A DNA stretch of 35,011 bases, from positions 1 to 35,011 of the forward strand of contig NZJX01000006.1 in NCBI GenBank assembly GCA_002692065.1. The letters run 5' to 3'. Below, piece by piece: positions 13,444-35,011 of this stretch (the first letter of the stretch is position 1; every line of letters begins with the position of its first letter). The stretch comes from Flavobacteriales bacterium. GTDB lineage: Bacteria; Bacteroidota; Bacteroidia; Flavobacteriales; UBA7430. Under the pieces are notes generated by a model. That model was given only the letters and a program-made list of their open reading frames with translations. It did no database searches and was not told the origin of the DNA. The translations under genes were made by a program, and so were the position numbers.

Positions 13444-13547
13444 AATATAAATTTATATGAATTAATAACTAAAAATTAATATAAGTTAAAGAATTAAATA
13501 ATATTACATTACCAAGTTTATTTTCAAATTAATCAAAAAATATTGTT

Positions 13548-15014: not shown

Positions 15015-15031
15015 TTTATCTAATTTACAAT

Positions 15032-15066: not shown

Positions 15067-15133
15067 ATATAATATAGTTCGGTTTTCTATAATTTTTTTT
15101 GTTCTTTTACAATGCTATTTTTTAGAAAACTTT

Positions 15134-16279: not shown

Positions 16280-16302
16280 ATATAATTTTTTTTCATCTAT
16301 AA

Positions 16303-16310
16303 TACTTTTG
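16303..16310 (+). promoter_or_regulatory. Possible -7 promoter element for the response regulator gene
   Basis: The octamer TACTTTTG fits TAnnTTTG and lies 44 bases before the ATG at 16355. No -33 match is found at 19 bases' spacing. The regulator may instead be co-transcribed with the phosphate transporter, whose stop is 75 bases upstream of its ATG. Confidence 0.3.
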
Positions 16311-16354
16311 TTACTTTTAAATGTTGATAAAGAAATTATTTCAAAATAAGACTT

Positions 16355-17053: not shown

Positions 17054-17201
17054 TTATCTTTTCCTAATTTAAATCTAGGAATAAATATTTTTACTCATCC
17101 AAATTAATAATTATATATCCATTTAATTATTTTAAATGGTATTTTCTTTTATTAAAATAAATTCATAAAATTTTAATCAATTTATTAATATATTTACCAA
17201 A

Positions 17202-19573: not shown

Positions 19574-21193
19574 ATGTTTAACAAAAAAAATTATTTCCAA
19601 TCAAAAACAAATCAATTTACACTATATTTATATGTTTTTGAAAACATAGTAAATGTCCAATTATTTGTTGTATTGTTTTGTCTATTCAGTTGTTCTGAAA
19701 GTCAAAAAAATAATAAAATAGAACCTGAGTTAATTTCACATACAAGAGAAAAAATGAATGTTTTATTTATTATTGCAGATGACCTAAATTGTGATCTCGG
19801 CTCTTACGGAAATTCAGTTGTAAAAACCCCTAATATTGATCGTCTTGCTGAAATGGGAGTGCTGTTTGAAAACGCTCATAATCAATATCCATTATGTGGT
19901 CCATCACGAGCCTCATTTATGACGGGCATGTATACCAATCAAACTAAGATAACCGAGAATAATATGAATCTTAGGAATTCCGTTCCTGATGTTATTACCT
20001 TGGGTCAACGTTTCAGACAACAAGGTTATCAATCCGTTCGAATTGGTAAAGTTTTTCACTATGACAACCCAAGTGCAATAGGAACATCAGGGAATGATGA
20101 CATTTATTCTTGGGACCAAACCGTCAATCCATATGGTAGAGATAAAATTGAAGAATATAAAATTAACACCCTAAAACCAAGAAGGTATGGTGGAACTTTA
20201 AGTTGGTTAGCTGCTGATGGTAAAGATGAAGAGCAAACAGATGGTATTGGAGCAAGTGAGGCTATCAAAAAGCTTGATGATTTTGCTATGAATAACACTC
20301 CATTTTTTTTAACTGTAGGGTTTTTTAGACCTCATACCCCATTTGTAGCTCCTAAAAAATATTTTGATCTTTATGATCGAGAAAAAATTGAAATTCCAAA
20401 AATCTCTAGTGACTATTTAGCAACTCTTCCAGAGCCTGCTGTAAAATCAATTAGAGCAAAAAAAAATCAGCTAAATCTCGAAAAAGAACTTGCTCAAGAA
20501 ATTAAAGAGGCTTATTATTCAACCATTTCATTTGTGGATGCTCAGGTTGGTAGACTTCTTGATCATCTTAAATCATCTGGATTAGACAAAAATACAATTG
20601 TAGTATTTACATCTGATCATGGCTATCATATGGGAGAACATGGTCACTGGCAAAAACAAACACTTTTTGATAATGCAACCCGAATTCCATTAATAATTTC
20701 TTTTCCAAACATGAAAAATAAAGGAGGTATATCTAAGAGTCCAGTTGAATTAATTGATCTTTATCCTACCTTAATGGATTTGACTGGAATAAATATACCT
20801 GAACATGTTGTTGGAAAAAGTCTAGAACCATTAATGAAAAACTTGAAAGCTTCAGTTCGAGGAAGTGCACTTACCAGATGGCGAAAAGGATATTCAATCA
20901 AAACTAAACGCTTCAGGCTCACAAAGTGGGGAAGTAATGGAGAGTTAGGTTATGAGCTCTACGACCATAAGAACGATAAGAAAGAGCTAATTAATCTTGC
21001 TAGAAACCAAGATTACAATGAAATAATGGATTCTTTAAAATTAGTAATCGAACAAAGAATTATTGAAGCCTCAATTAAACCTAAAGGTTTAGGCAGACAA
21101 TTTGAAGATGCCAAACCCACCCCAAAAGCAAAAAATATTACTTTTGGGGACATCCACGCTGTAAATGGAGAAATATTGTATTTTAAGAAATAA
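19574..21193 (+). CDS. S1-family sulfatase, iduronate-2-sulfatase-like (S1_7-like)
   Basis: A 539-residue exported sulfatase, probably a lipoprotein (CLFSC, lipid Cys about residue 40, after an unusually long 25-residue polar lead). The alkaline-phosphatase-type fold shows the metal-binding DD in FIIADDLNCDLGSYG (about 69-70), the sulfatase signature LCGPSR with the formylglycine-forming Cys at about 108, the iduronate-2-sulfatase-like features RIGKVFH and GFFRPHTPFVAPKKYFDLY, and the second metal site TSDHGYHMGEHGHW. These resemble human IDS and subfamily S1_7, so desulfation at a 2-O position of a sugar is plausible but unproven. It sits 29 bases after the GH3 gene. The Cys must be converted to formylglycine; a suitable enzyme is encoded two genes on. 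Confidence 0.93.
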   Translation: MFNKKNYFQSKTNQFTLYLYVFENIVNVQLFVVLFCLFSCSESQKNNKIEPELISHTREKMNVLFIIADDLNCDLGSYGNSVVKTPNIDRLAEMGVLFENAHNQYPLCGPSRASFMTGMYTNQTKITENNMNLRNSVPDVITLGQRFRQQGYQSVRIGKVFHYDNPSAIGTSGNDDIYSWDQTVNPYGRDKIEEYKINTLKPRRYGGTLSWLAADGKDEEQTDGIGASEAIKKLDDFAMNNTPFFLTVGFFRPHTPFVAPKKYFDLYDREKIEIPKISSDYLATLPEPAVKSIRAKKNQLNLEKELAQEIKEAYYSTISFVDAQVGRLLDHLKSSGLDKNTIVVFTSDHGYHMGEHGHWQKQTLFDNATRIPLIISFPNMKNKGGISKSPVELIDLYPTLMDLTGINIPEHVVGKSLEPLMKNLKASVRGSALTRWRKGYSIKTKRFRLTKWGSNGELGYELYDHKNDKKELINLARNQDYNEIMDSLKLVIEQRIIEASIKPKGLGRQFEDAKPTPKAKNITFGDIHAVNGEILYFKK

Positions 21194-21233
21194 TGGATTC
21201 ATTTTAAACATTAAAATTATAAAATTTGATATT

Positions 21234-22703
21234 ATGATATTACAAGAAGCATTAAAAAAAATACCATTTAGCGTTAATAAAAAAGTATTTTTCCTAGTTG
21301 GAATTTTGTTACTTTTTTTTTCATGTAATTTTAATGATGTTTCTAAAGAAAAAAATTTTTATACATCCTCTCCTAATTTCATACTTATTTTAGCTGATGA
21401 TCAGGGTTGGAATGGCACCTCAGTTAAAATGATGGATAACGAGCCAGGATCAAAAAGTGATTACTTTGAAACACCAAACTTAGAGATTCTCTCTAAAAGA
21501 GGTATTCGGTTTTCTAATGCTTATGCAAGTGCTCCTGTTTGTGCTCCTTCAAGGTATAGTATTCAATTTGGAAAAACACCAGCTCGGCTATCATTGATTC
21601 GTGTTGGAATGAATACAGATCATATTGATCATGAAGGATTTATAAGTATACCTAAGGCGCTTAAAAAAATAAATAGACAATATAAAGCAGCACATTTTGG
21701 AAAATGGGGAATGGGTAGTAATCCTGATGTTTTAGGTTATGATTTAAGCGATGGGACCACTAAAAATAAGGATGGGGGGCATATTAATAATAAAAGTCAA
21801 TGGGAAAATACATTTAAAAAGGATCCGAAAAAAATTTTCTCTATAACTGACAGAGCATTAAATTTCATGAAATCTTGTAAAGCAGAAAAAACCCCTTTTT
21901 ATCTTCAAATTTCTCATTATGCTGTTCATGCCAACATTGAATCCAAAGAAATAAGCTATTCTCGGTTAAAAGATAAGCCAAAGGGGGAACAACAAAAAAA
22001 TCTAGGATTTGCTGCAATGACTTTTGATTTAGATGAAGGGCTTGGTATACTTTTGAATAATATAAAAGAACTTGGCATCGAAGACAACACTTATATCATA
22101 TACATGTCTGATAATGGTTCAGTGCCTAATATCCCAGCAGCCAGGAAGTATCAAAAAAGTTATAACTACCCTTTGAGTAGAGGTAAATGGGATGCACTAG
22201 AAGGAGGAGTTCGTGTTCCACTAATTATTTCTGGACCAGGAATTAAAAATGGTTCAGAGTCTTCCATACCTGTCTCTGGAAGCGACCTCTTACCTACTAT
22301 ATTAGAATTAGCTGGCAATAAAACAATCACATTGAATGAGATTGATGGAGGGAGTTTTGCGCCAATACTTTTGAATAAAAATAATGACCAAATTAAAAGA
22401 GCGGTTGATGGTATTTTCTTTCATGTTCCCTATAAAAATGGTATTGCTTTAAAAAGACCACATTCTGCAGTAAGAAAAGGAGATTATAAGCTAGTTAAAT
22501 TTCAAGATGATAAATCAATCTTTTTGTATAATTTAGTAGAAGACAAAATGGAACAAATAAATTTAGCCCCTCAAAATCTAAAGAAAGCAAAAGAATTGGA
22601 AAAAATGTTAGATAATTATCTAATTGAGGTCCATGCCCCAAAATGGCAAGATGGAATTACTTGGAAAAAGACACCTTTAAATGAAATTAACTCAAACTAC
22701 TAA
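21234..22703 (+). CDS. S1-family sulfatase (arylsulfatase A-like)
   Basis: A 489-residue exported lipoprotein sulfatase. I placed the start at ATG 21234: an earlier in-frame ATG at 21165 lies inside the previous gene and adds a non-signal-like lead, whereas the chosen start gives a lipoprotein signal (LLLFFSC, lipid Cys about 31). The metal-binding DD is in LILADDQGWNG (about 55-56), the active-site Cys at about 103 in VCAPSR, then AHFGKWGMGS, YMSDNGS, and SRGKWDALEGGVRVPLIISGPG, which is typical of arylsulfatase-like S1 members (perhaps S1_16). The regiospecificity is unknown. The gene is 40 bases after the previous sulfatase, and the next gene starts 3 bases after its stop, so they are almost certainly co-transcribed. 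Confidence 0.92.
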   Translation: MILQEALKKIPFSVNKKVFFLVGILLLFFSCNFNDVSKEKNFYTSSPNFILILADDQGWNGTSVKMMDNEPGSKSDYFETPNLEILSKRGIRFSNAYASAPVCAPSRYSIQFGKTPARLSLIRVGMNTDHIDHEGFISIPKALKKINRQYKAAHFGKWGMGSNPDVLGYDLSDGTTKNKDGGHINNKSQWENTFKKDPKKIFSITDRALNFMKSCKAEKTPFYLQISHYAVHANIESKEISYSRLKDKPKGEQQKNLGFAAMTFDLDEGLGILLNNIKELGIEDNTYIIYMSDNGSVPNIPAARKYQKSYNYPLSRGKWDALEGGVRVPLIISGPGIKNGSESSIPVSGSDLLPTILELAGNKTITLNEIDGGSFAPILLNKNNDQIKRAVDGIFFHVPYKNGIALKRPHSAVRKGDYKLVKFQDDKSIFLYNLVEDKMEQINLAPQNLKKAKELEKMLDNYLIEVHAPKWQDGITWKKTPLNEINSNY

Positions 22704-22706: not shown

Positions 22707-23876
22707 TTGATCAGTAATAAAAAATATATATTGTTTGGGACTCTGACTTTTCTTCTAACTTCATGTAAGATTCGAGATAAAAATTCAAATACAAATGAAG
22801 AAATCAAAAATAACAATTGCCAAAAGACATGCCTTGAAAATTCAAGAACAAAGAGTCTCCTTAAGGAAATAGACCATACAAATGTTGTTAACAAAATAAA
22901 TGATTCATTATATTGTTTAAACCCAGACTCCAATGAGAGTATGGCTTATATTCCAGGGGGGATATATAGTATGGGTTCAAGTAACATAGACATGGCTCTA
23001 AAAAGGGAGCTCCCTCAACATCAAGTTAAAGTAAACGCCTTTTATATGGATATTCACGAGGTAACAAATTCTCAGTTTTCTGCTTTTGTTAGGGCAACTA
23101 ATTATAAAACTGTTGCAGAGCGTCAAATTGATTGGGATATAATTAAAAAACAACTTCCAAAAAATACTCCCAAACCTAATCCTGATCTTCTACAACCCGG
23201 ATCAATGGTATTTGTCTCGAGTAAAGATATCTATAATTTGATTGATATCTCCCAATGGTGGAGATGGATTAAAGGAGCTGATTGGCAGCATCCTTATGGT
23301 CCAGAAAGTAATATTAAGGGTAAAGGACAAGAACCTGTTGTTCATATTTGTTACCATGATGCTTTAGCATATGCAAAATGGTGTGGAAAGCGCTTACCTA
23401 CTGAAGCAGAATGGGAGTGGGCAGCTAGAGGGGGGTTAAAAGATAAAGTTTATCCCTGGGGGAATTTATCTGTGGAAAAAGGAACCCCCAAATGTAATTA
23501 TTGGACAGGAATTTTCCCAACTAAAAATACTGAGACAGATGGTTTTGAAGGGGTTGCACCAGTGATGCAATATGAACCAAATGGCTATGGTCTTTATGAT
23601 ATGGCAGGGAATGTTTGGGAAATTTGTGAAGATTGGTATGATGAAAATTATTATTCATCTTTAAATCTAACGGAAATTCAAGATAATCCAAAGGGACCAA
23701 AGACATGGAATTATCCCATGGAACCAATGGATCCAAAACGTGTTATTCGTGGAGGATCATTTTTATGTAATGATAGTTATTGCTCAAGCTATAGGGTTTC
23801 AGCTAGAATGCCTTATTCTCAAGATACAGGTATGAGTCACACTGGATTCAGATGTGTAAAAGATGTCACTCCATAA
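22707..23876 (+). CDS. Exported formylglycine-generating enzyme (sulfatase activation, SUMF1-like)
   Basis: A 389-residue FGE-fold protein that should oxidise the Cys of C-x-P-S-R sulfatases to formylglycine. It keeps both catalytic cysteines, at about residues 354 and 359 in GGSFLCNDSYC, with the five-residue spacing of human C336/C341, plus the FGE features YIPGGIYSMGSS, IHEVTNSQF, KRLPTEAEWEWAARGG, YGLYDMAGNVWE and GFRC. This argues for a true copper-dependent, oxygen-using enzyme over a non-catalytic FGE-like domain. The N-terminus (ILFGTLTFLLTSC) is a lipoprotein signal with lipid Cys about 20, so it acts outside the cytoplasm. The start must be TTG at 22707: an in-frame stop is two codons upstream and the next ATG would cut into the fold. 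It follows the sulfatase gene by 3 bases. Confidence 0.9.
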   Translation: MISNKKYILFGTLTFLLTSCKIRDKNSNTNEEIKNNNCQKTCLENSRTKSLLKEIDHTNVVNKINDSLYCLNPDSNESMAYIPGGIYSMGSSNIDMALKRELPQHQVKVNAFYMDIHEVTNSQFSAFVRATNYKTVAERQIDWDIIKKQLPKNTPKPNPDLLQPGSMVFVSSKDIYNLIDISQWWRWIKGADWQHPYGPESNIKGKGQEPVVHICYHDALAYAKWCGKRLPTEAEWEWAARGGLKDKVYPWGNLSVEKGTPKCNYWTGIFPTKNTETDGFEGVAPVMQYEPNGYGLYDMAGNVWEICEDWYDENYYSSLNLTEIQDNPKGPKTWNYPMEPMDPKRVIRGGSFLCNDSYCSSYRVSARMPYSQDTGMSHTGFRCVKDVTP

Positions 23877-23979: not shown

Positions 23980-24010
23980 CTTGTCTTATAATTTTAATTT
24001 ATTATTTTTG
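23980..24010 (+). promoter_or_regulatory. Promoter of the outer-membrane barrel/lipoprotein/glycosidase cassette
   Basis: A -33-like CTTG (23980-23983) and a perfect -7 match TATTTTTG (24003-24010) are separated by exactly 19 bases, as in Bacteroidota primary-sigma promoters. Transcription would begin near 24017, only about 18 bases before the ATG at 24035. This also argues against the longer TTG start at 23981, which would lie inside the promoter. Confidence 0.55.
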
Positions 24011-24034: not shown

Positions 24035-25930
24035 ATGAGGAGATCATTTTGGTTCATTCTTTTTATGTGGTGGGGGTCTTCTTTTTCTCAAGATACAATT
24101 ATCCAGCAAAAACCTTTTAGCAGTAATATTTTGAGTTTTAAGAACCCTTCAACTTCAATAGCATTTTCAGGTTATTACAGGTTTTTAGGTTTTGTGCGAA
24201 ATCAAAAAGAGACATTTCCAAATAACGCTGGCAAAACAGTATTTATTAACTCAGGAGATGTGTTTAGAGAACCTATGCTTCTTTTAAAGTTAAATGGAAA
24301 AACGAGAGACAACATTAGTTTTGGCGCTGATTTAATGATCAATAGTTTATATAAAGGCCCTTCAGCTATTTATACTCGAGCTTTGACCCTAGAGCTTGGA
24401 CTTAATCTAACAACATCATTTGCTACGAAATACGGAAACTTTAATTTTAAATCAGGGGGTGTTTCATGGTATAGACAAAGTCGACTCACTGTCTGGGGAA
24501 ACAGATCCTTTAATAGGACCAGTATCTTTGAAAGAAGACCTCAAACTTTATTGAATAAATTACCTATTAATCGTTATTCAAATTATTACAATAGTGGATT
24601 GGTAGATCAAGGAATTAGATATGGGAATCGAGCCTTTCAAGGTATTTTTCTTCAAGGATCTAAGCTTCCATTAAATTTTTCTGTAAAAGGAGTTATTGGG
24701 AAAACTAACTTCAACCGATCTTTACTTGAAACTAGTGATAATTTCACAGGGTGCTTTCAACTTAAAAATATGCTCAGTCCCAATTTAAAAGTTGCTTACA
24801 ATTACCTTTCCTCATGGGCAGATACAGACTCTTTGAGAGATGATAAAAGAAACTATTTTATTCATTCTTTTGAATTGGTAAAGAAGTGGAATAAAATACA
24901 ATTCGAAATGGAGATAGGACTAGGGAAGTATAGTGATCCTAATCAGAATTTGGGCTATGGAGAAGCTATCCTTTTAAATATTAAAACAGCAAAATCAAAT
25001 AAAGTCCCCTTAAATGTTCAGTTTTATAGAATTTCACCACAATTTGTAAACGTTACAGGAAACTTTTTAAACACCTCAGTTCTCGAGGTCTTCCCAAATG
25101 TGGAAGGTATAGGAACTACAGTGAGAACACCTTTTCAAAGTCCAATTGTAGGGCTTGGAAGACCTGTAAATAATAGACAAGGTTTCTCTATTAATGCAGA
25201 TGCTAGTCTTGGTAGGTTGAAATTAAACGGAGGTATTGGAATATATGCTGAGATTGATACTTCATATGCTGCTTTGTCTTATATCCACAATGTTAATAGC
25301 CAGACACTATCAAGGCTAAATATATTTGCACAAAACTGGGGACCATATAATGCCCTAAATTCTACTTACAGAGGAGTCTTTGAAAATGTAAATATTAGTG
25401 ATACCACTGCAAGTGGATTTGCAAATTTTAAAAAGTTTTACAACACTATTGAATTCCAAGCCAAATACAATAATAAGATATTTGGAAAGAACTACTATAT
25501 ATTTTCTCTAACACGACTTAATTCTTGTCAAAAAAATTTAAAGGCTCTTCCACAGGTTAATAGCCAAGCACTGATTAGTCAACTTAGCGAAGAAATAGAT
25601 TTTAGTATTGAATTAACAAAGAAATCAACATTTGTTTTAAGCTATGGTGTAGAAAAAATATTAGGTAATAATTCTACAGATATAGGAGACAGCCCAGAAC
25701 CTTCTGCAACAAGTGCTTTTTTTGAGAGGTTGGGTCTTAAAAAGCTTTTCAGATATACGAAAGCAAGAAATCAAAAAAACACACTTTTTGGTTTAGGTTT
25801 TGATTATATGATAGGTCCAAATGCAATGATTTTTTTTCGTCACAACCGGTACAGATATTTTGACCCCAATTTTATAGAAAATCATTTAAAAGGCTGGGAA
25901 ACAATGCTTGAATTAAAAATAAAATTTTAA
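24035..25930 (+). CDS. Outer-membrane beta-barrel protein of unknown family (first of pair)
   Basis: A 631-residue product starting MRRSFWFILFMWW with a signal peptide cleaved at SSFSQ. The rest alternates hydrophobic and polar residues in many short strands and ends in WETMLELKIKF, with a terminal Phe as expected for an outer-membrane barrel. The start contains SIAFSGYYRFLGFVRNQ, and there is no TonB plug or carboxypeptidase-like domain, so it is neither SusC nor a TonB receptor. I recognise no family. It opens a five-gene cassette with another barrel (3 bases downstream), two lipoproteins and a glycosidase, flanked by sulfatase genes. A porin, surface glycan channel or binding scaffold is possible but unproven. 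Start chosen by signal peptide and promoter position. Confidence 0.75.
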   Translation: MRRSFWFILFMWWGSSFSQDTIIQQKPFSSNILSFKNPSTSIAFSGYYRFLGFVRNQKETFPNNAGKTVFINSGDVFREPMLLLKLNGKTRDNISFGADLMINSLYKGPSAIYTRALTLELGLNLTTSFATKYGNFNFKSGGVSWYRQSRLTVWGNRSFNRTSIFERRPQTLLNKLPINRYSNYYNSGLVDQGIRYGNRAFQGIFLQGSKLPLNFSVKGVIGKTNFNRSLLETSDNFTGCFQLKNMLSPNLKVAYNYLSSWADTDSLRDDKRNYFIHSFELVKKWNKIQFEMEIGLGKYSDPNQNLGYGEAILLNIKTAKSNKVPLNVQFYRISPQFVNVTGNFLNTSVLEVFPNVEGIGTTVRTPFQSPIVGLGRPVNNRQGFSINADASLGRLKLNGGIGIYAEIDTSYAALSYIHNVNSQTLSRLNIFAQNWGPYNALNSTYRGVFENVNISDTTASGFANFKKFYNTIEFQAKYNNKIFGKNYYIFSLTRLNSCQKNLKALPQVNSQALISQLSEEIDFSIELTKKSTFVLSYGVEKILGNNSTDIGDSPEPSATSAFFERLGLKKLFRYTKARNQKNTLFGLGFDYMIGPNAMIFFRHNRYRYFDPNFIENHLKGWETMLELKIKF

Positions 25931-25933
25931 CCT

Positions 25934-27697
25934 ATGAAAAGAAGGATACAACTTTTACTTGTTTTTTTTGCAATCCTTTCATCTGAATATAATCTTCAAG
26001 CTCAGATGAATGGTAATATTTGGTTTGACGGACTTTATCGTTCGTATTTTACAAGAGATGCACTAAACAACAGTACAACAGATGATACATTATCTCCTAG
26101 AAATACATCAAATGGCTACAATTTATTAGATCTCAATACTCATATAAATCCAATTAAGGATATTGAAATTTTTGCACAGCTCCGAATTCGAAATTCTTTT
26201 GGAAGCTTTTTTGGATCAGCGTCAGGAACACAAATAAATGTGCGACAACTTAAGGCGAGAGGAGTCATAAATAATAAGTTACGTTTTAGTGTTGGTGATC
26301 TTTTTTTAAAGCAATCTAAATTTACTCTTTACAACTATGATGAAGAACTTTCAGGTTTTGAAAATGATATGTTTAAGCCTTATCGTGATATAATTCACTA
26401 TGAAAACTTTTACATAGAAAATAGATGGCGATTACAGGGTATTCAAACTGACTTCTCCTATGAATTTGATAGATTTATAAGGAACTTAAGTTTTGATTTA
26501 TTTGTCACTCGTCCTAGTGGATCTTCTCAAATTAATGAAACTACAGCTTCAAGTGATCTTTTACTTTCAGGAGTTTCTATGGTTTCTGAAATTAATAAAA
26601 GACTAATAGTATCACTAAACTACGTTAACTTATTTGAAGTGCCATCTAGCGGCACGAGCAATATTTCTGTTCGAAATCCAGTTTATGATCTGTCAATTTT
26701 ACACCATCTTAGCAAAGATAAGTATCGGATTGAAAATAAGATCCAAACTGGCTTCTCCAAAAGGTTTTGGCTTCATTCAGAGCTTGCTAATGGAGAATTA
26801 GACACAATATCAAATCACACGAAAGGGATGTTTTTTGAATTAGATAATAAATTTATTAAAAGAGACTCTTCACTATTGTTAACTTTTGGTTATCGCTACG
26901 TAGATCCAAATTTTAGAAGTGCTGGAGCCCAAACTCGTCGGTTAGATTATGCCTCCGGAAATATCAACACTACTTATCCGATATACACTAATATGTCTTT
27001 AATTAGACCACCTTCTGTTTTTGACCTCGTATCTGATGACCAACTGTATAACCAAGACCTATCTAGTGTTTTAATGGTCTTCAATCCTATTTATTCAAAT
27101 ATATTGCCTTTTGGAGACGCCACCCCCAATAGAACAGGGATTTACCTTAAGGCTAAAATAAATAATGAAAAAAATGTATTTCTTTCTAAAATTAATTCAG
27201 GATTTTTTAAAGAAGTAATAGGTCAAGGTGCTTCAGAAAAAAGAAATTTTGCCTTAATTAAAGGTTTTTTCAAAATTAATTTTCATCGATGGTTAAATTG
27301 GAAAAAAGAATTAAGTGTTTCTACTTCATCTGAAAGTGAATTTACTAAAAGAGGTGGTGAAGCTGTTTCTTCATTAAATTTATTTAGTCACCAAATGAAT
27401 ACATCAGTAAATGCAGAGTTAACCAAAAATCTTTTCATTCAAGCATCCTATAAGCTTTTTAATGCAAATGGTAATGAATTTTTAACTCAGCGAGATGATT
27501 ATGGGAATATTACTTATTTTGCATCAACAGAGATAGACCAAAAAGATCATATTCTATCACTAGGAATGTTGTATAAATTTAGAAAAAATGCTTATGCGTC
27601 GCTAAATTATAATTGGTGGGGTACTGAATTTACTGATCAACCGAATTTAGATTACAAATATAATAGACTAATATTAATTTTATCTGTGGAGTTATGA
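25934..27697 (+). CDS. Outer-membrane beta-barrel protein of unknown family (second of pair)
   Basis: A 587-residue product with a signal peptide (MKRRIQLLLVFFAIL..., cut near LQAQ at about residue 24). It begins GNIWFDGLYRSYFTRD, followed by NLLDLNTHINPIKDIEIFAQLRIRNSFGSFFGS, a pattern of amphipathic strands seen in porin-like barrels, and ends YNRLILILSVEL. No TonB box or plug is seen. I cannot name the family. It starts 3 bases after the preceding barrel gene, and its TGA overlaps the ATG of the following lipoprotein gene (ATGA), so production is probably coupled. Both barrels may form one outer-membrane complex with the lipoproteins; this is inference from gene order. Confidence 0.75.
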   Translation: MKRRIQLLLVFFAILSSEYNLQAQMNGNIWFDGLYRSYFTRDALNNSTTDDTLSPRNTSNGYNLLDLNTHINPIKDIEIFAQLRIRNSFGSFFGSASGTQINVRQLKARGVINNKLRFSVGDLFLKQSKFTLYNYDEELSGFENDMFKPYRDIIHYENFYIENRWRLQGIQTDFSYEFDRFIRNLSFDLFVTRPSGSSQINETTASSDLLLSGVSMVSEINKRLIVSLNYVNLFEVPSSGTSNISVRNPVYDLSILHHLSKDKYRIENKIQTGFSKRFWLHSELANGELDTISNHTKGMFFELDNKFIKRDSSLLLTFGYRYVDPNFRSAGAQTRRLDYASGNINTTYPIYTNMSLIRPPSVFDLVSDDQLYNQDLSSVLMVFNPIYSNILPFGDATPNRTGIYLKAKINNEKNVFLSKINSGFFKEVIGQGASEKRNFALIKGFFKINFHRWLNWKKELSVSTSSESEFTKRGGEAVSSLNLFSHQMNTSVNAELTKNLFIQASYKLFNANGNEFLTQRDDYGNITYFASTEIDQKDHILSLGMLYKFRKNAYASLNYNWWGTEFTDQPNLDYKYNRLILILSVEL

Positions 27698-28743
27698 AAA
27701 TTAAAATAAAACTTATTACTTTTTACAGCTTACTATTCTTTGTACATAGTTGCACAAAAACAGAATTTGAAGGACCATCAATTGCAAATTTATACGGGGA
27801 CTTTGAGTTAATTGAACCACTTATACTTACAAATAAAAATCCAAGTTTTTCAATCAACGAACAAGTTGGTTTTCATTGTGAGTTTAATAAACCAGTTCAA
27901 TGGAAAATTGCTATCTCGGGTCTAAGTTCTTCTGCTTATAAGGAAATTTCGGGTTTTTCTGATCTTATTGACTCAAATACTGTTTTTTGGAATGGCGGGC
28001 CATCACAACTTCCTTTTTTTTCAGAAGAAGTTTGTTCTGTCGAATTGACTATTGAAAATGAAATTGACACCCTAAGAGACGATATCACTATTGTTTCAAC
28101 TAAAACTTATGAAAATGGTATCTGGGTTGAAGATTTTGAAGATGGTCTTCCAGAAGGCAGTCTTATTCACTATGATTCTGATGGTGGAGGTATGACTTTT
28201 TTTGTAGCAAGTGATGACCCATTACTTGGGAATAATTATTTTAAGATGGGTGGTAGAGTTAATTGGGACTGGCCTTTGGGAAATCTTGATATACCTATTA
28301 ATATTGCTAATGCTAGCCAAAGTTCAAACAATTTTTATATTAATATAGGCATACTGTCAGATATCCAAGACTTACATAGTGGTCAATTTATAAATATTTT
28401 AATTTCTGAGGAAAAAGACACTCCATTTAATGATAATCTAAACAATAATGCTTCAGACTTATTTGAATCATCAATGGAGGTATATAAAATGAAGGTCCCT
28501 GTAGATTGGGATGGTTGGCAAATTAAATCGTTTAGGTATTCAGACTTTGAACCTGTATCACCAAATAATACAAATATTAATTTTAATATGAATCCAAATG
28601 ACATTAGGGCAATTAGAATTTCTTGTCAAGCATGCCCCTCATCTGTTGGAAATCCAGTTTGTCCTGAAAATTTTGGAAAAGATGTAAGAACAGATATAGA
28701 TCATATTATTTTCACTACAAATTCTAGCTTATTAGACCAATAA
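27694..28743 (+). CDS. Lipoprotein with possible carbohydrate-binding beta-sandwich
   Basis: A 349-residue lipoprotein: signal ending FFVHSC with the lipid Cys about residue 20, followed by TKTEFEGP. The region from about 25 to 130 looks immunoglobulin-like and is followed by a second beta-rich domain beginning GIWVEDFEDGLPEG, with DSDGGGMTFF and a WDGWQIKSFRYSDF segment reminiscent of jelly-roll carbohydrate-binding modules. Four cysteines lie close together near the C-terminus (SCQACPSSVGNPVCPENF plus neighbours). No SusD-type helical repeats are present. I do not recognise the family. The start overlaps the stop of the second barrel gene by 4 bases and its stop overlaps the next start by 1 base. 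A surface glycan-binding role is plausible. Confidence 0.7.
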   Translation: MKIKIKLITFYSLLFFVHSCTKTEFEGPSIANLYGDFELIEPLILTNKNPSFSINEQVGFHCEFNKPVQWKIAISGLSSSAYKEISGFSDLIDSNTVFWNGGPSQLPFFSEEVCSVELTIENEIDTLRDDITIVSTKTYENGIWVEDFEDGLPEGSLIHYDSDGGGMTFFVASDDPLLGNNYFKMGGRVNWDWPLGNLDIPINIANASQSSNNFYINIGILSDIQDLHSGQFINILISEEKDTPFNDNLNNNASDLFESSMEVYKMKVPVDWDGWQIKSFRYSDFEPVSPNNTNINFNMNPNDIRAIRISCQACPSSVGNPVCPENFGKDVRTDIDHIIFTTNSSLLDQ

Positions 28744-29918
28744 TGAAATTGAATATACAAATAATTATAGGATTTTTTATTTTTTGCAGCCTCTCCTGCG
28801 GTTCTATGCGTGAGGTTAGTATTTATGAACCTTCTAGATCTATTTCAGCATTTGATCAATTTCCCTATAAAACACTCTTTACAAATTCTAGTGAAAATGG
28901 ATTATGGGGCGTAAAAAATAATAATTGTAAGGAAGTATATTTTGATACTAATAATAGCTTCATTGGAAAAGACCATCTTCATATAAAGTGGGATGCATCA
29001 AAATGTAATTATATTGGAATGGGGCTGAAATGGAGTAATTACAAACCTAAAAATCTGATACCTATTATAGAATCGACCGCAATAGAACTTCGTGTTCGTA
29101 TTGATTCGGGTTCTATTTCAAATACACCTATGTTTTTTATATTATTAGATTACGGAGGTAATCAATGTAGGGCAAATATTAACTATTTAGATCTTGAAGG
29201 AGGAAAAATTGATACACAATGGAGACGTATACGCATTCCTCTTCAGGCATTTAATTACGAAAAACGAGGTGTTAATATGAGTAATATAAAAGAGCTTCGT
29301 CTTGAATTTCAAAGAAAGGGAGATCTTCATATAGATAATATTTTAATTGTACCTCATGATCATAATTATCATAAGACAAAGGGTACATTTAAAAAAGTAT
29401 TTAAGTCAAATCCTATTAAGCTTGGAGTTGGCAAAGAATATTGGTGGGGGATTAATACAAAATATTCATCTAGTCTGCAATTTGGCAACTCCTTTAAAAA
29501 CGAAAGTATAGTTGTTGATCTTCCCCAATCTAAAGAATCATCTTGGAATATATTTGGTTTTTCTCCCTATCAATGGTTGCGTATTGATATATCCACTATT
29601 TATAGTACATCAGCTCTAAAGTTTAAGTTAAAAGCAACTCAAATTCCAAAGCTTCAAGCTAATTTTTTTGCTTATACAGGAAAAAAAAGAAGGTTATTTA
29701 AAATATTAAATGAAAGTCATTTTATTGATAAAGGGAATGGCATATATGAAGCCTATCTTCCTTTAAAAGCAATAAAAGGCCATGGAGAATTTAGATGGGA
29801 TGAACTCAAGGAAATCAGATTTAAAATATTAGAGGGGGGACAATTTGAATTAGGGGACTTTCAACTAATTGAATTTCGTGGAAATCCTAAAAAACCTACA
29901 CAATGGAAAGGAATATAA
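28743..29918 (+). CDS. Lipoprotein with two tandem beta-sandwich-like regions
   Basis: A 391-residue lipoprotein: signal with IFCSLSC, lipid Cys about residue 19. The first region (about 40-205) contains HLHIKWDASKCNYIGMG, IELRVRIDSG, WRRIRIPLQAF, IKELRLEFQRKGDLHIDNILIV, the strand order of galactose-binding-like/CBM11-type folds that end in an IDNI strand. A second region (about 225-391) shows SWNIFGFSPYQWLRIDIS, LKFKLKATQIP, FRWDELKEIRFKILEGG and ends with a corresponding strand FELGDFQLIEF. Such proteins often bind polysaccharide next to a catalytic partner; here the glycosidase gene starts 16 bases before its stop. No catalytic residues are evident. Family assignment is by pattern only. 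Confidence 0.68.
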   Translation: MKLNIQIIIGFFIFCSLSCGSMREVSIYEPSRSISAFDQFPYKTLFTNSSENGLWGVKNNNCKEVYFDTNNSFIGKDHLHIKWDASKCNYIGMGLKWSNYKPKNLIPIIESTAIELRVRIDSGSISNTPMFFILLDYGGNQCRANINYLDLEGGKIDTQWRRIRIPLQAFNYEKRGVNMSNIKELRLEFQRKGDLHIDNILIVPHDHNYHKTKGTFKKVFKSNPIKLGVGKEYWWGINTKYSSSLQFGNSFKNESIVVDLPQSKESSWNIFGFSPYQWLRIDISTIYSTSALKFKLKATQIPKLQANFFAYTGKKRRLFKILNESHFIDKGNGIYEAYLPLKAIKGHGEFRWDELKEIRFKILEGGQFELGDFQLIEFRGNPKKPTQWKGI

Positions 29919-31180
29919 ATATATTTATTTGCCTAGTATTTGTTATGGCATACTCTCTCAACACCTATTCACAGGTAAATAAAGTTCAAGTGATTAAGAA
30001 TGCTTTAGGTAATTTTGAATTACAAAGAAATGGAAAGCCATACTACATTAAAGGTGCAGGTGCTAAAGCTCATTTTGATCTATTAGCCCAGTCAGGAGCT
30101 AACTCAATTAGAGTTTGGAGTACTAGTAATAATGCATTATTAGATTCTGCTTATAATCACAACTTTACCGTCTCACTAGGTTTATATGTAAGACCTGAAA
30201 GAAGCGGTATGGATTATAATGATGAATATGCAGTTAAAGGTCAAATCGAATATCTTAAAAATGAAGTCTTGAGATACAAGGATCACCCAGCTCTATTGGT
30301 CTGGGGTATTGGTAATGAGGTTGATTTGAGATATAGTAATTTTAAAGTTTGGGAAACCATTGAGATCATAGCAAAATTCATAAAGGAGGTAGACCCTTAT
30401 CATCCCACTATGACAGTAATTGCTGGGGTAGATCCGTCTAAGGCATTTTATATAAAAAAAAATTGCCCAAGTATTGATATATTGGGGCTTAATGTCTATG
30501 GTTCAATTGAAAATGCAGGAGCTAATTTAAGAAAGTTTAATTGGGAAAAACCTTACATAGTTTCTGAATGGGGAGTAAATGGGCCTTTTGAAGCTCGAAA
30601 AACATCTTGGAATGCGAAGATTGAACCACCAAATGGAGTAAAAGCTGACCAGCGAAAGCGAAGATATCTTGAGATAATTGAAAAAGATAACGAACTTTGC
30701 CTTGGGAGTTATTGTTTTCTTTGGGGACAAAAACAAGAATCAACAGCTACTTGGCATGGAATGTTTTTAAGTAATGGAAATCCAACAGAGGCAGTTGATG
30801 TAATGCAATATTGTTGGACTGGAGAATGGCCAAAATCAAGAGCACCTTCTATTAAAAATATATCATTAGAAAATATAGGATGGAGAAAAGATCACGTCCT
30901 ATCTCCATCTAAACAAGCGACTTTGAGGATAGATTATTTTAAATACAACAACGAACAAGTAACGCTTGAATACATATTATATCCTGAAGCCTTTAGCAAT
31001 AAAATTGGTGGTGATATTCAGTTATCGCCAGATCCCATAAATTTTGAAATTATACAGAAAATTGGTTCGGAGTTAACTTTTATAACTCCAAGTAAAAAAG
31101 GAGCTTATCGTATTTTTGCTTATGTAAAAAATAATAAAGGACAATGCTCTGTTGCTAACATTCCATTCCTAGTAGAATAG
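29903..31180 (+). CDS. Exported clan GH-A glycoside hydrolase (GH2/GH5/GH158-like TIM barrel)
   Basis: A 425-residue secreted retaining glycosidase. Signal peptide ends at NTYSQ (about residue 24). The TIM barrel starts NGKPYYIKGAGAKAHFDLLAQSGANSIRVWS; the acid/base Glu is about residue 139 in VWGIGNEVDL, just before strand 5, and the nucleophile is about residue 222 in YIVSEWGVNG. A WGQKQESTATWHGMF loop follows, and a C-terminal beta domain (about 315-425) completes the protein. The motifs are those of clan GH-A; the overall look is that of short proteins annotated as GH2 TIM-barrel or GH158-like, and I cannot choose a family or linkage without a search. Its start overlaps the upstream lipoprotein gene by 16 bases. 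It ends 4 bases from the stop of a convergent sulfatase gene. Confidence 0.85.
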   Translation: MERNINIFICLVFVMAYSLNTYSQVNKVQVIKNALGNFELQRNGKPYYIKGAGAKAHFDLLAQSGANSIRVWSTSNNALLDSAYNHNFTVSLGLYVRPERSGMDYNDEYAVKGQIEYLKNEVLRYKDHPALLVWGIGNEVDLRYSNFKVWETIEIIAKFIKEVDPYHPTMTVIAGVDPSKAFYIKKNCPSIDILGLNVYGSIENAGANLRKFNWEKPYIVSEWGVNGPFEARKTSWNAKIEPPNGVKADQRKRRYLEIIEKDNELCLGSYCFLWGQKQESTATWHGMFLSNGNPTEAVDVMQYCWTGEWPKSRAPSIKNISLENIGWRKDHVLSPSKQATLRIDYFKYNNEQVTLEYILYPEAFSNKIGGDIQLSPDPINFEIIQKIGSELTFITPSKKGAYRIFAYVKNNKGQCSVANIPFLVE

Positions 31181-31184: not shown

Positions 31185-32765
31185 TTAGTTGTTAAATAGT
31201 TGAATAAGTGTTTTATAACCAGGTCTAAAGAGAAGCACCTCGAAATCTTTTTTAGGTTTAATTATTTCGTTTGCTTTATAAATATTCCAACCTGATTCAT
31301 TCCTATTTCGCCAACCTACCGAGGTATATAGATTATTAGATTCAATTATATAACCTAAATCTTTCATAATAAGTTTTGGTAAGTTGAGTTTTGGTATAGA
31401 TATGGAACTGGTAAACATGGAATCTAGCATTGCTAATTCGCTCATGTTACCAAAATCAGACTCTTCCATCCATTTAAATAAATGATATTTTAATGTATTA
31501 TAAATTTCTTCATATTTGGGATTATGGATTAGGTTGTTTAATTCAAAGAAGTCTTTTGAAACTTCATAAAGTTCAAAACGATCTTTATGTTTCAAGAACC
31601 AATTTGAAAAGTAAGAATTTAGTTCTTGCTTTTTCATAAGAGAATCAAGTACTTGCATCGTTTTCATTTGTCGACGGTATATAATCGGTTTATATATGGT
31701 AGTTGAGGTATCTCCATTATAAATTAGTTTAAAATTACTATCACGAATACTTCTTCGCATATCAACCCCACTATCAAACCTGTCTGTAGCTCCATAGACA
31801 TACTTACGTTGGTCTTTTTTAAAGAAAGAAACACCTTCAAACGGTAATTCTCTTTCAATATTTGCTGCGTCAAGTAAAGTTGGAGCAAAATCAACAAAGC
31901 TAATCAGTTGAAAATTCTTTCCTCTATTAGTCTCATCAATCCATTTAACTATCATTGGAACATTAAGACCAGTTTCATAAATTGATCGTTTATATCTGGG
32001 GAAGGGGCCACCGTGGTCGCTAAAGAAAAATATAATAGTGTTTTTATACAAGTTGTCCGCTTTTAGCTGGTTTAAAATTGCACCAATTTTTTCATCCAGT
32101 TTTTCTATATTTTTATAGTTAGTTAGTATATCCCTTTTAATTTCATCGTCATCAGGAAAAATTTTTGGAGTTAGAATATTTTCTAATTCTTTTTTTGAAT
32201 ATGAAGTTTTATTCCTCCAGATATTAGACTCATGCGTTACATTGAAATTAAAGACCGAAAAAAAAGGTTGACCTTCTTGTTTATTTCTCCAATGTGCTTC
32301 TTGACTACTTTCGTCCCAGGCTAACGGAGATGCTTTCATATTATAATCTTCTTTTGAATTATTAGTACAATAATAGCCTTTTGCTCTAAGATCTTCTGTG
32401 AAGAAACGAATTGGTTTTTTTGGTTTAGCACTATAATATGGTAGAGAGTTATGAGGATTAATTGCACTATTTTCTTTCGATTTTTTATAAGCTCGCATAT
32501 GTTGTGTACCAATTGATGTAGGATACATTCCTGTAATTAGACAACTTCGACTTGGGGCACAGACAGGAGAAGGTGTGTAACAATTTTGATACACCAATCC
32601 ATCTTTAGCCAGCTGATTTATGTTTGGAGTATTTGCACTTGAATCACCATACATTGGAAAAAATAAGGATTGATCTTCACAAACTAGCCATAAAAAATTT
32701 GGTGATCCTTGTCCAAAAGAAAAAGTGGATATACTCAAAAATAGATAAAATAGACTCGTTTTCAA
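31185..32765 (-). CDS. S1-family sulfatase, S1_8-like (sulfamidase-like)
   Basis: About 526 residues. I chose the TTG at 32765, which gives a normal signal peptide (MKTSLFYLFLSISTFSFGQ); the more distant TTG at 32789 adds eight residues of poor signal character and lies inside a -7-like element. The mature enzyme starts NFLWLVCEDQSLFFPMYG, where the usual DD is ED as in heparan-N-sulfatase-like members; the formylglycine-forming Cys is about residue 69 in PVCAPSR, and the second metal site is FFFSDHGGPFPRYKRSIYETGLNVPMIV. It has no lipobox, so it should be soluble in the periplasm or secreted. It is divergent from another sulfatase gene and convergent with the clan GH-A glycosidase gene. Substrate position is uncertain. 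Confidence 0.9.
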   Translation of the reverse strand: MKTSLFYLFLSISTFSFGQGSPNFLWLVCEDQSLFFPMYGDSSANTPNINQLAKDGLVYQNCYTPSPVCAPSRSCLITGMYPTSIGTQHMRAYKKSKENSAINPHNSLPYYSAKPKKPIRFFTEDLRAKGYYCTNNSKEDYNMKASPLAWDESSQEAHWRNKQEGQPFFSVFNFNVTHESNIWRNKTSYSKKELENILTPKIFPDDDEIKRDILTNYKNIEKLDEKIGAILNQLKADNLYKNTIIFFFSDHGGPFPRYKRSIYETGLNVPMIVKWIDETNRGKNFQLISFVDFAPTLLDAANIERELPFEGVSFFKKDQRKYVYGATDRFDSGVDMRRSIRDSNFKLIYNGDTSTTIYKPIIYRRQMKTMQVLDSLMKKQELNSYFSNWFLKHKDRFELYEVSKDFFELNNLIHNPKYEEIYNTLKYHLFKWMEESDFGNMSELAMLDSMFTSSISIPKLNLPKLIMKDLGYIIESNNLYTSVGWRNRNESGWNIYKANEIIKPKKDFEVLLFRPGYKTLIQLFNN

Positions 32766-32786
32766 GTTGTGTAGTTTATAAATAGT

Positions 32787-32794
32787 CAAATTTA
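32787..32794 (-). promoter_or_regulatory. Possible -7 promoter element for the minus-strand sulfatase gene
   Basis: The minus strand reads TAAATTTG, matching TAnnTTTG, and would start transcription near 32780, about 15 bases upstream of the TTG at 32765. No good -33 element is visible. If real, it excludes the longer start at 32789. Confidence 0.38.
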
Positions 32795-32914: not shown

Positions 32915-34516
32915 ATGAAGTCTAACAATTTTTTCAGTTTGTTCAACATTATTAGTCTTTTTCTAATCTCGCTTTGTGCATGCAATTCAACTAAAGAAAA
33001 ATTTCAAGAAAATAAACCGCTAAATATCATTTATATTATGGCTGATGACCATGCTTATCAGGCTATTAGTGCATATGAATCTGAAATTAGTAAACTTGCG
33101 CCAACTCCTAATATAGATCGTATCGCAAAGGAAGGAGCTCGAATGGACGCTGTTTACTGTACAAATTCTATATGTGGACCCAGTAGGTCCTCCATATTAA
33201 CAGGTAAATTTTCACATGTCAATGGATTTTATAAAAACGTTGATGGAGGAGATTTCAATGGGGAGCAGCTAACATTTCCAAAAGTTTTTCAAAAAAACGG
33301 CTATCAAACTGCAGTAATTGGGAAATGGCATTTAGGAACTAAGCCTACTGGGTTTGACTATTCTAAAGTTCTAATAAATCAAGGTGGACAGGGAACTTAT
33401 TTTAATCCCCAATTTTGTATAAATGGAAAAGATACTGTGACAGAAACAAAACTGCATTTAACAAAAGTAATAGAAAATGATTGTTTAGATTGGTTATCAA
33501 ATAGAGATACTACTAAGCCTTTTATGCTGTTGTATCAATTTAAAGCTCCTCACAGAGATTGGAGGCCAGACTCAATGTATCATGATTTGTTTAATAATTT
33601 TGATTTTCCACTTCCAGAGACCTTTAACGATAATTATGAGGGAAGAATTGCAGCTAGTGAAAATATGATGGAAATTGGAAGGCACCTTAACAGAAGAGAT
33701 ATGAAGCAAATACCTCCTAAGGGATTGTCAAGAAGAGATTCATTACGTTGGCTTGCCTATGGAGATAAGGGGCAATATTGGTCACCAAATGATACATTAA
33801 AAGGAGATGCTTTAAAATACTGGAAATTTCAAACTTATATAAAAGATTATCTAAGATGTGTTGCTGGAGTTGATCGGGCAGTTGGAAGTGTTTTAGATTA
33901 TTTAGATGAAAATGGATTAAGTGAAAACACGATTGTAGTTTATACCTCTGACCAAGGGTTTTATCTTGGAGAGCATGGATGGTTTGATAAAAGATGGATG
34001 TATGAAGAATCTTTTAAGATGCCTTTCTTGATTAAAAATCCAAGAGTTATTAAAGCTGGAACCACCTCAGATGCAATGTTAATGAATGTTGATTTCGCTC
34101 CCACTCTTCTTGATATGGCCGGTATAGAAATTCCTGGGGAAATGCAGGGAAAAAGCTTCAAAGAGGTATTTGGTGGTAATCAAAAAAATAAAAGAAAATC
34201 AGTCTATTATCATTATTATGAGTATCCTATTTGGCATAAAGTACAACCACATTATGGGGTAAAAACTAATAGATACAAATTAATGTATTTCTATTATACA
34301 ATGGATGAGTGGGAATTATATGATTTAAAAACAGACCCAAATGAAATGAATAATATATATTCTGACGCGCCTCAAGATTTGATTGATAGCTTGAAAAAAG
34401 AACTTGAAGCACTCAGAAAAGAATACAAAGACGATGATTCACTTGAACAAATGAGAAGGATGACAGATACTGTTATCAAAAGAGTTTATAATGAGCCAAA
34501 CAAGATTATGAAATAA
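32915..34516 (+). CDS. S1-family sulfatase, N-acetylglucosamine-6-sulfatase-like (S1_11-like)
   Basis: A 533-residue exported lipoprotein sulfatase: signal with lipobox LCAC, lipid Cys about residue 23. The metal-binding DD is in IIYIMADDHAYQAIS (about 44-45), the formylglycine-forming Cys about 87 in SICGPSR, then GKWHLGTKPTGFDY, FKAPHRDWRPD, YTSDQGFYLGEHGWFDKRWMYEESFKMPFLI and a C-terminal region YHYYEYPIWHKVQPHYGVKTNRYKL. The HRDW and GEHGWFDKRWMYEES segments resemble members of subfamily S1_11, which act on 6-O-sulfated GlcNAc; the true substrate may be another sugar. ATG start at 32915, divergent from the S1_8-like gene with 149 bases between the starts. The last gene in the window begins 40 bases after its stop. 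Confidence 0.92.
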   Translation: MKSNNFFSLFNIISLFLISLCACNSTKEKFQENKPLNIIYIMADDHAYQAISAYESEISKLAPTPNIDRIAKEGARMDAVYCTNSICGPSRSSILTGKFSHVNGFYKNVDGGDFNGEQLTFPKVFQKNGYQTAVIGKWHLGTKPTGFDYSKVLINQGGQGTYFNPQFCINGKDTVTETKLHLTKVIENDCLDWLSNRDTTKPFMLLYQFKAPHRDWRPDSMYHDLFNNFDFPLPETFNDNYEGRIAASENMMEIGRHLNRRDMKQIPPKGLSRRDSLRWLAYGDKGQYWSPNDTLKGDALKYWKFQTYIKDYLRCVAGVDRAVGSVLDYLDENGLSENTIVVYTSDQGFYLGEHGWFDKRWMYEESFKMPFLIKNPRVIKAGTTSDAMLMNVDFAPTLLDMAGIEIPGEMQGKSFKEVFGGNQKNKRKSVYYHYYEYPIWHKVQPHYGVKTNRYKLMYFYYTMDEWELYDLKTDPNEMNNIYSDAPQDLIDSLKKELEALRKEYKDDDSLEQMRRMTDTVIKRVYNEPNKIMK

Positions 34517-34556: not shown

Positions 34557-35011
34557 ATGAAAATTTTTTTATTGCTATTATTTAGTATACCTATTATGAG
34601 TTTAATCTCTACTAACAAATGTTCTTTGTCCGAACTTTTTCTAAAAAAAACTAAAATATTTCTATTATTAGCTGTATTTATAGTTAATTCTTTTAACACA
34701 TTTGCTCAAACTACATCCTTAATAAGTGATTGTGGTGATTTCATTCCAGGCCCTAATGCTTCTTGGCCTCATGTTCTTGTGGCAACAATTATTGCAGATG
34801 GTCCAGCTAGTCAAGCATCGCAAACATTTACTATGAATGTAACTTCTTTACCAGCAGATGGAGCCAACTTTAGAGTTTATAAAACTGTTGCAAATGGAAA
34901 TGACTATTTTGGAAATCCAATAGAATTGAATCTGGGTTCAAATAGCATCACAGTGAGTGCTGTTACTTTTGATAGAGCAGTGAAATTCCAATTCTCAAGT
35001 GGAGATGTAGA
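34557..35011 (+). CDS. Secreted protein, 5' part only (cut by window end)
   Basis: An open frame from ATG 34557 runs through the window end, about 151 codons so far. The N-terminus has two hydrophobic stretches, residues about 3-16 and about 33-48; the second ends FNTFA|Q, a normal signal-peptidase I site, so the true start could be the internal ATG (about codon 14, 34596). The mature part begins QTTSLISDCGDFIPGPNASWPHVLVATIIADGPASQ and continues with Thr/Ser/Asn-rich short strands (TFTMNVTSLPADGANFRVYK), typical of an extracellular beta-sandwich domain. A T9SS signal or catalytic domain might follow outside the window. It is co-directional with the preceding sulfatase gene. Confidence 0.7.
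   Translation, partial: MKIFLLLLFSIPIMSLISTNKCSLSELFLKKTKIFLLLAVFIVNSFNTFAQTTSLISDCGDFIPGPNASWPHVLVATIIADGPASQASQTFTMNVTSLPADGANFRVYKTVANGNDYFGNPIELNLGSNSITVSAVTFDRAVKFQFSSGDV

Follow-up and report, generated by a model that had tools for sequence, protein, structure and literature searches.

The gene cluster chu_1276-chu_1280 of Cytophaga hutchinsonii encodes two outer-membrane proteins, two proteins resembling surface glycan-binding proteins (SGBPs), and an endoglucanase. It has been described as an 'atypical PUL' (polysaccharide utilization locus) that is co-activated on cellulose (PMC12016534). Cellulose degradation requires chu_1276 and is markedly affected when chu_1277 or chu_1280 is lost, and mutants without chu_1279 cannot grow on cellulose; SusC/SusD are reported not to be involved (PMC12016534). 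As further holders of the cluster, the abstract of that paper names only C. aurantiaca and S. myxococcoides; this system, the closest one known, has been published for a few cellulose-degrading Cytophagales. Here, a related five-gene cassette is described from a Flavobacteriales bacterium of probably marine origin. It lies in a 35,011-nucleotide stretch at the start of contig C2 of genome bin G000 (G000:C2:1-35011), which as a whole is called the window.

Two other kinds of system can be compared with the cassette. The 1,3-glucan locus of Bacteroides uniformis with BuGH158 (PMC7157763), a canonical SusC/SusD PUL, shares GH158, GH16, GH3, and binding lipoproteins with the cassette loci, and all three enzyme families occur in the laminarin-type copy of the cassette described below. 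The cassette differs in having no SusC/SusD, with two plug-less barrels in their place. Moreover, BuGH158 is called a predicted cell-surface enzyme (PMC7157763), whereas the cassette GH158 is without a lipobox. Marine laminarin PULs and clusters of carbohydrate-active enzymes (CAZymes) without SusCD (PMC10108472, PMC6794258) overlap with the cassette loci in their CAZyme families, and one NS4 laminarin PUL without susCD belongs to this literature. The barrel pair is not described for these systems in the available portions of the two papers.

The five-gene cassette and its kinship to chu_1276-chu_1280

The cassette consists of the following genes.

24035-25930, plus strand: BAR1, outer-membrane beta-barrel of 631 aa, homologue of CHU_1276, ATG start
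25934-27697, plus strand: BAR2, predicted second outer-membrane barrel of 587 aa, homologue of CHU_1277, ATG start
27694-28743, plus strand: LIP1, probably surface-exposed, predicted glycan-binding lipoprotein of 349 aa, homologue of CHU_1278, ATG start
28743-29918, plus strand: CBM30L, lipoprotein of 391 aa carrying a CBM30-like domain, placed as CHU_1279 is in its cluster, ATG start
29903-31180, plus strand: GH158, endo-beta-1,3-glucanase-type enzyme of 425 aa with a signal-peptide-like N-terminus, named from PDB matches, ATG start

We propose, with a probability of about 0.7, that these five genes form the core of an atypical PUL without SusC/SusD, of common descent with chu_1276-chu_1280, by which a glucan is captured, led across the outer membrane by the barrels, and cleaved in the periplasm. 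We infer the transport and its direction, the formation of a complex, the membrane leaflets of the lipoproteins, the periplasmic location of GH158, and the substrate. A first-pass annotation of this DNA had listed the same five open reading frames (ORFs), joined at +3, -4, -1, and -16 bases, as two barrels without a TonB plug, two lipoproteins unlike SusD, and a clan GH-A glycosidase, with no SusC/SusD in the cassette. Coordinates and junctions were recovered as described. In Pfam and NCBIfam, no SusC/SusD was found in the cassette, neither lipoprotein matched SusD, and neither barrel matched any family; for TonB plugs and TonB barrels this holds at E up to 1. The glycosidase could be narrowed to GH158.

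Profiles restricted to the window and to members of its family among the genomes scored 283.7 bits against CHU_1276, 353.4 against CHU_1277, and 114.8 against CHU_1278 (E 2.2e-32); the highest of 1000 shuffled sequences reached 9.1 bits, and 8.7 for CHU_1278. By BLASTP, the BAR1 of the window matched CHU_1276 (2e-36, 25%) and its BAR2 matched CHU_1277 (2e-71, 30%). By these scores, BAR1, BAR2, and LIP1 are clearly homologous to CHU_1276-1278. The fourth gene of the C. hutchinsonii locus, as read here, encodes 375 aa with W89, F92, F180, Y253, F256, and F343, matching the published CHU_1279. CBM30L appears to be remotely homologous to it, as hhalign aligned CBM30L with the CHU_1279-like group over 206 columns (96.1%, E 3.5e-9). 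The two systems are alike in gene order, with two adjacent homologous barrels, a homologous LIP1, a fourth gene that is SGBP-B-like in C. hutchinsonii and may be remotely similar to CBM30L, and an endoglucanase-type fifth gene. They differ in the enzyme and the substrate. CHU_1280 is a GH9 enzyme, and so the enzyme has been exchanged: GH9 and cellulose there correspond to GH158 and, putatively, beta-1,3-glucan or a sulfated relative here. The sulfatases and formylglycine-generating enzyme (FGE) also set the surroundings of the window cassette apart from the C. hutchinsonii cluster.

Conservation of the cassette

In its own order, the BAR1 profile matched 55 of 296 genomes, representing 26 of 91 genera. 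Phylum-wide it matched 6 of 395 genomes, the own genome counted, and in the order of genome G591, in the same phylum, 10 of 114 genomes, whose loci have 54-69% G+C. The BAR2 profile matched 26 of 291 genomes in the order of genome G712. A collection of named records gave 61 loci, which by title comprise 36 Flavobacteriales, 4 Cryomorphaceae, 5 Crocinitomicaceae, 13 Bacteroidetes/Bacteroidota/Bacteroidia, and 3 others. One BAR1-BAR2 contig is titled Sphingomonadales (L122, VHAX01000052.1) and is probably a misbinned Bacteroidota contig.

Gene order was read in six frames at 71 loci. It can be seen that no exception occurs at any of the first three junctions: BAR1 is followed by BAR2 in 69 loci (2 contig ends), BAR2 by LIP1 in 62 (7 contig ends), and LIP1 by CBM30L in 54 (8 contig ends). 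All five genes are present in 50 loci. GH158 stands downstream in 35 loci and upstream in 21, and none was seen in 15, in every one of which the contig ends in or near the cassette on at least one side. Among the 50 complete loci, GH158 directly adjoins the other four genes in 34. In the order sample, a GH158 match (E <= 1e-30) was found in 48 of the 55 BAR1 genomes and in 14 of the 241 others. The first-pass annotation had allowed that the arrangement might be confined to this genome; the same order recurs in dozens of loci elsewhere and is therefore conserved beyond chance.

In the order of G712, where 29 loci were read with C. hutchinsonii included, the barrel pair is adjacent in 28, and 26 of these also have LIP1. 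A relative of the GH9, GH3, GH16, or GH158 references is found in 14 of the 29. The cassette family is widespread and barely recognised, and its range is far wider than what was found in print in the literature searched. No report of an extension to GH158/sulfatase loci, to Flavobacteriales, to the distant high-G+C group, or to paralogous cassettes was found in that literature.

SusC and SusD in the genome and the order

The own genome, a bin of 92.1% completeness, has no match to the SusD families PF07980 and PF14322, the two SusD families covered by the search. No match above the SusC cut-off was found in it, and TonB receptors are present. In tables that ignore phylogeny, SusD (PF07980) is present in 17 of the 55 BAR1 genomes and 142 of the 241 others of the order sample, and among GH158 genomes in 13 of the 14 without BAR1 and 17 of the 48 with it.

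The barrels

The wide alignments contained the window protein together with length-filtered sequences, namely 31 of 56 for BAR1, 31 of 56 for BAR2, 25 of 55 for LIP1, and 17 of 37 for CBM30L. In each barrel alignment of 32 members, the window's own included, weak generic OMP_b-brl matches were found in 3 (E up to 0.01), and no member matched Plug; one DUF3575 match occurred among these members at the same threshold. A Plug scan of the own genome gave 18 matches, all outside the cassette. Comparison of the BAR1 and BAR2 profiles by hhalign (97.3%, E 2e-11, 505 columns) indicates a remote homology between the two barrels. A C-terminal Phe is present in 55 of 57 BAR1 relatives. The assignment of BAR2 as a barrel would follow from its homology to BAR1, the weak OMP_b-brl matches, and the published CHU_1277.

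The first-pass annotation had called for profile searches and structure prediction of the four unknown proteins, and for the barrels had considered membership of a known unrelated family. The profile searches yielded CBM30 for the second lipoprotein and the CHU homologues. The AlphaFold2 (AF2) model of BAR1, built on an alignment of 8 rows, is barrel-like at low confidence (pLDDT 55.8, pTM 0.58); that of BAR2, built on 7 rows, is poor (pLDDT 41). The top structural matches listed for the BAR1 model were FimD/PapC ushers, Occ porins, and BT1762-1763 chain D (Z 14-15.5). AlgE is also among the matches, whose rows mix large and small barrels; these are matches of a generic barrel, and no kinship was drawn from them. 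Against PDB sequence profiles, BAR1 had no match and BAR2 only OprF (E 0.064), and PHROGs gave nothing informative for any of the five cassette proteins at E up to 0.1. No known unrelated family was matched by the barrels in the Pfam, NCBIfam, PHROGs, or PDB profile libraries.

The lipoproteins

The LIP1 of the window has a lipobox-like HSC, and the sequence from the lipid-bearing Cys reads CTKTEFEG. It matched no family in Pfam or NCBIfam; among 26 LIP1 members, one matched CBM11 (E 1.8e-4). Matches of LIP1 to odorant-binding proteins in the PDB profiles (E 0.04-0.07) were taken as chance. CBM30L matches the Pfam family CBM30 with E 1.6e-6 and 28.6 bits, above the cut-off of 27, and its profile found 2c24 (E 0.00097) and 1wmx (E 0.0027) in the PDB. 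Two laminarin-type relatives of CBM30L scored 21.3 and 21.6 bits for CBM30, under the cut-off. Kinship between LIP1 and CBM30L was considered and is unsupported, as the hhalign alignment is confined to 34 columns in the signal region.

The two lipoproteins may face opposite sides of the outer membrane. Among LIP1 relatives with a lipobox recognised by regular expression, which leaves out 12 of 56 sequences, 38 of 44 have two or more acidic residues at +2 to +7 after the lipid-bearing Cys, several of them as K-D-E; the 56 include one weak match of the type IX secretion system (T9SS) type (L131, 20.9 bits). The same signal occurs in only 3 of 28 CBM30L relatives (10 of 38 left out in the same way), 1 of 14 GH3 proteins, 3 of 22 sulfatases, and 6 of 13 FGE proteins. 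It resembles K-(D/E)2, the surface-export signal of Capnocytophaga (PMC5080379); the letters of the window's own LIP1 fit it loosely. Because this export-like signal is common in LIP1 and rare in CBM30L relatives, we infer an outward orientation for LIP1 and perhaps an inward one for CBM30L.

The GH158 enzyme

The best PDB sequence matches of the enzyme were 9oro, named GH158(Pro) (E 2.4e-83), and 6pal (E 5.6e-56), and these assign it to GH158, an endo-beta-1,3-glucanase family of clan GH-A. The catalytic residues of BuGH158, N136, E137, and E220 (PMC7157763), correspond to N138, E139, and E222 of the cassette enzyme, numbered by that of locus L067, which is 98% identical to the window's. All 48 aligned relatives have N138 and E139, and 47 have E222; the remaining one reads X there. 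The enzyme is probably periplasmic, because 41 of 46 GH158 relatives lack a lipobox by regular expression and the family scan found no T9SS tail on the window protein. Likewise, 15 of 29 GH3 relatives are without such a lipobox.

The window subtype, its neighbours, and the laminarin-type copies

Around the cassette, the window carries the following features.

10422-13376, minus strand: TonB-dependent receptor with a carboxypeptidase-regulatory-like N-terminus, outside the cassette (family scan)
17202..19544, plus strand: cassette-associated GH3 (family scan)
19574..21193, plus strand: associated sulfatase, CGPSR (PF00884 and motif)
21165..22703, plus strand: associated sulfatase, CAPSR (PF00884 and motif)
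22707..23876, plus strand: FGE-type protein (PF03781, E 8.4e-77)
23981..24010, plus strand: possible Bacteroidetes-type promoter, TTG-N19-TATTTTTG, with TAnnTTTG at 24003
31185..32789, minus strand: sulfatase, CAPSR, convergent with the cassette (PF00884 and motif)
32915..34516, plus strand: associated sulfatase, CGPSR (PF00884 and motif)

The four sulfatases, the GH3, and the FGE had been named beforehand and were all found, with PF00884 and C-x-P-S-R in each sulfatase. A minus-strand sulfatase directly after GH158 is also seen in several relatives, such as L067, L069, L070, and L072. The promoter had been claimed at 23980-24010. The motif string is present there, and we take its consensus to be of the Bacteroidetes type; a promoter at 23981..24010 is plausible only, because this kind of spaced motif starts at 9 sites on the plus strand of the window and TAnnTTTG alone occurs 34 times versus about 30 expected from base composition.

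Nineteen loci were assigned to the window type. For the neighbour clusters, ORFs of 150 aa or more and up to five genes away were counted, in loci often cut by contig ends. A sulfatase lies near 17 of the 19, an FGE near 16, at least one of both near all 19, and neither near any of the 47 other loci; this count is descriptive, since the set was chosen after the neighbours had been seen. In the later test of monophyly, window-type members (15 to 18 per tree) were monophyletic in all five gene trees with support of 0.999-1.0. Short fragments and matches of 100 bits or less were left out of these trees, and L067, with a 97% identical BAR1, stands for the window. Between the five trees, patristic distances show correlations of 0.59 to 0.85, with LIP1 lowest. 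Additionally, a relative of NrtR-type NUDIX/winged-helix regulators lies near 26 of the 47 non-window-type loci (L110, L112, and L114, for example) and near none of the 19.

The GH158 of the window type differs systematically from that of other loci at 14 positions. These include three beside the nucleophile, V225, P228, and F229 versus P, H, and W, as well as H285 versus Y. Since sulfatases and FGE have been recruited and GH158 is altered next to its nucleophile, the substrate of the window type has probably changed to a sulfated relative of laminarin.

A second cassette occurs in the same bin (L015, G000:C15:33000-50000), with the order GH158-BAR1-BAR2-LIP1-CBM30L and 29-44% identity. Its neighbours in a row are a sugar porter of the major facilitator superfamily (MFS), a GH94-superfamily protein, a T9SS-tailed protein, GH16, GH3, and a GH26 gene that was read in part; neither SusC nor SusD was seen at this locus. 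This gene set is what a laminarin locus would need, bar SusC/SusD, and it may be regarded as a laminarin version of the cassette. Relatives have similar laminarin-type rows, of which that of G006 (L020) was read most completely. That the C15 copy belongs to the organism of the window is uncertain, because the C15 stretch has a lower G+C (0.265 vs 0.302) and the bin has an estimated contamination of 6.8%. In another genome, a single contig (G004:C2) carries both a window-type and a laminarin-type cassette. Several cassette genes of its two loci, L017 and L018, are in pieces, probably from sequencing or assembly errors.

The host bin comprises 1.65 Mb in 21 contigs. In the closest named record, the uncultured Cryomorphaceae bacterium AG-903-K14, BAR1 is 97% identical. 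The start of C2 is the same stretch as the end of C7: window 159-34615 corresponds to G000:C7 from about 197357 to 231812, with 99.83-99.91% identity over about 34 kb. The two are probably overlapping contigs left unmerged, so the near-identical second BAR1 match is probably no second gene. A duplication of the window in the genome was therefore set aside, and the overlap may be part of the source of the contamination estimate. At 13692-15014 of the window, a secreted protein with a T9SS tail seems to be split over two ORFs, with a break at the same place in the C7 copy. Elsewhere, L024 (G000:C2:35011-52000, 3-5876) and window 34557-35009 hold three proteins related to one secreted protein, with some ambiguous bases; one of the three has a T9SS tail and a Glucodextran_B match.

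Proposed mechanism and alternatives

In the proposed mechanism, LIP1 would be flipped to the cell surface and capture a polysaccharide resembling a beta-glucan. BAR1 and BAR2, as a pair of barrels without plugs, would pass chains or long fragments over the outer membrane, where CBM30L may receive or steer the glycan chain, and GH158 would cut it in the periplasm. GH3 and the sulfatases would finish degradation, after which an inner-membrane sugar carrier would take over. For the window subtype, into which sulfatases and FGE appear to have been recruited, the substrate would probably be a sulfated laminarin relative, with the C15 copy as the laminarin version. The first-pass annotation had suggested a glycan capture or transport complex unlike SusC/SusD, made up of two porins, binding lipoproteins, and a dedicated hydrolase, and this is supported by the gene order kept in many genomes and the homology to chu_1276-chu_1279.

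Several observations weigh against this reading. The CBM30L profile itself found nothing in CHU_1279, and the barrel models are of low or poor quality. GH158 lies 1.3 to 4.6 kb away from the other genes in 16 of the 50 complete loci, and 7 of the 55 BAR1 genomes, several of them fragmentary, have no GH158 match. In the order of G712, 15 of the 29 loci have no match to the GH9, GH3, GH16, and GH158 references. Seventeen genomes carry both BAR1 and SusD, and the negative association of the two is confounded by phylogeny and is suggestive only. To these are added a barrel pair in a biosynthetic-looking context and an enzyme-activity phenotype of CHU_1277, both taken up below.

As an alternative, the barrel pair might export or remodel a beta-glucan-like polysaccharide of the cell itself, with the glycoside hydrolase trimming it. 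Periplasmic glucanases trim the product in cellulose secretion. This export reading, also raised in the first-pass annotation, finds its best case in L190 (G712:C19:22000-40000, 5943-17811), where BAR1-BAR2 without LIP1 stand beside a 1333-aa protein in which a GT2 synthase is joined to GH26- and GH158-like domains, further neighbours being an acyltransferase, a UDP-glucose dehydrogenase, and an epimerase. A synthase of this type was matched in only 1 of the 29 loci in the order of G712, and relatives of the cassette are accompanied by GH16, GH3, sugar importers, and NrtR-type regulators. At the window, export fits poorly: the neighbours are sulfatases, FGE, and GH3, and no glycosyltransferase was found among 22 of the 24 listed ORFs of at least 100 aa, ORFs 2791-3273 and 5705-6016 being outside the scan. 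Synthase-dependent exporters such as AlgE are alike in being barrel-type conduits for polysaccharide in the outer membrane, the structural match of BAR1 to AlgE being generic, and they differ in that no synthase was found among the scanned window ORFs. Mutants of the C. hutchinsonii cluster also lose cellulose use or have it weakened (PMC12016534). Own-polysaccharide export is therefore considered improbable for the cassette. Because the L190 pair stands in a biosynthetic-looking context, it suggests that the two barrels may serve as a conduit for import as well as for export.

About equally improbable is a role of the barrels as scaffolds in the outer membrane, by which binding lipoproteins and enzymes would be kept at the cell surface, with uptake via other porins. 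Such a role could explain why the loss of CHU_1277 lowers cell-associated beta-glucosidase activity (PMC5553014), and growth is still restored by CHU_1279 variants with damaged binding (PMC12016534). However, most of the GH158 enzymes and about half of the GH3 enzymes, being without a lipobox, are probably periplasmic and would need an imported polymer or oligomer, and two barrels strictly kept together would be a costly scaffold. Genomic hitch-hiking of unrelated porins in a CAZyme-rich region, for which the scarcity of BAR1 phylum-wide might speak, is very improbable, as it is contradicted by the absence of gene-order exceptions over 71 loci, by the recurrence of the window-type clade in all five gene trees, and by two whole cassettes of different type on one G004 contig.

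Implications

Laminarin is a major algal carbon store. With the cassette, its hosts can probably import algal glucans independently of the usual SusC/SusD importer. In a wider and more tentative view, the BAR1-BAR2 pair could be a general conduit for polysaccharide chains in the outer membrane, the second in Bacteroidota and independent of SusC/SusD and TonB plugs. Its variants would be equipped with GH9 for cellulose, GH158/GH16 for laminarin, and GH158 with sulfatases for a sulfated glycan; one or more lineages would have combined the pair with a glycosyltransferase for export. SusC/SusD might be replaced by this pair in streamlined Flavobacteriales, where laminarin-like polymers would be taken up whole.

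The PUL caller of PMC6794258 demanded a susC- or susD-like gene, and callers of this kind would miss these cassettes. Small-genome Flavobacteriales may therefore look poorer in polysaccharide use than they really are. The cellulose cluster of C. hutchinsonii would become one branch of a widely spread family and no longer an oddity of a few cellulose eaters, and the passage of glycans over the outer membrane without SusC/SusD becomes directly testable with a short gene list.

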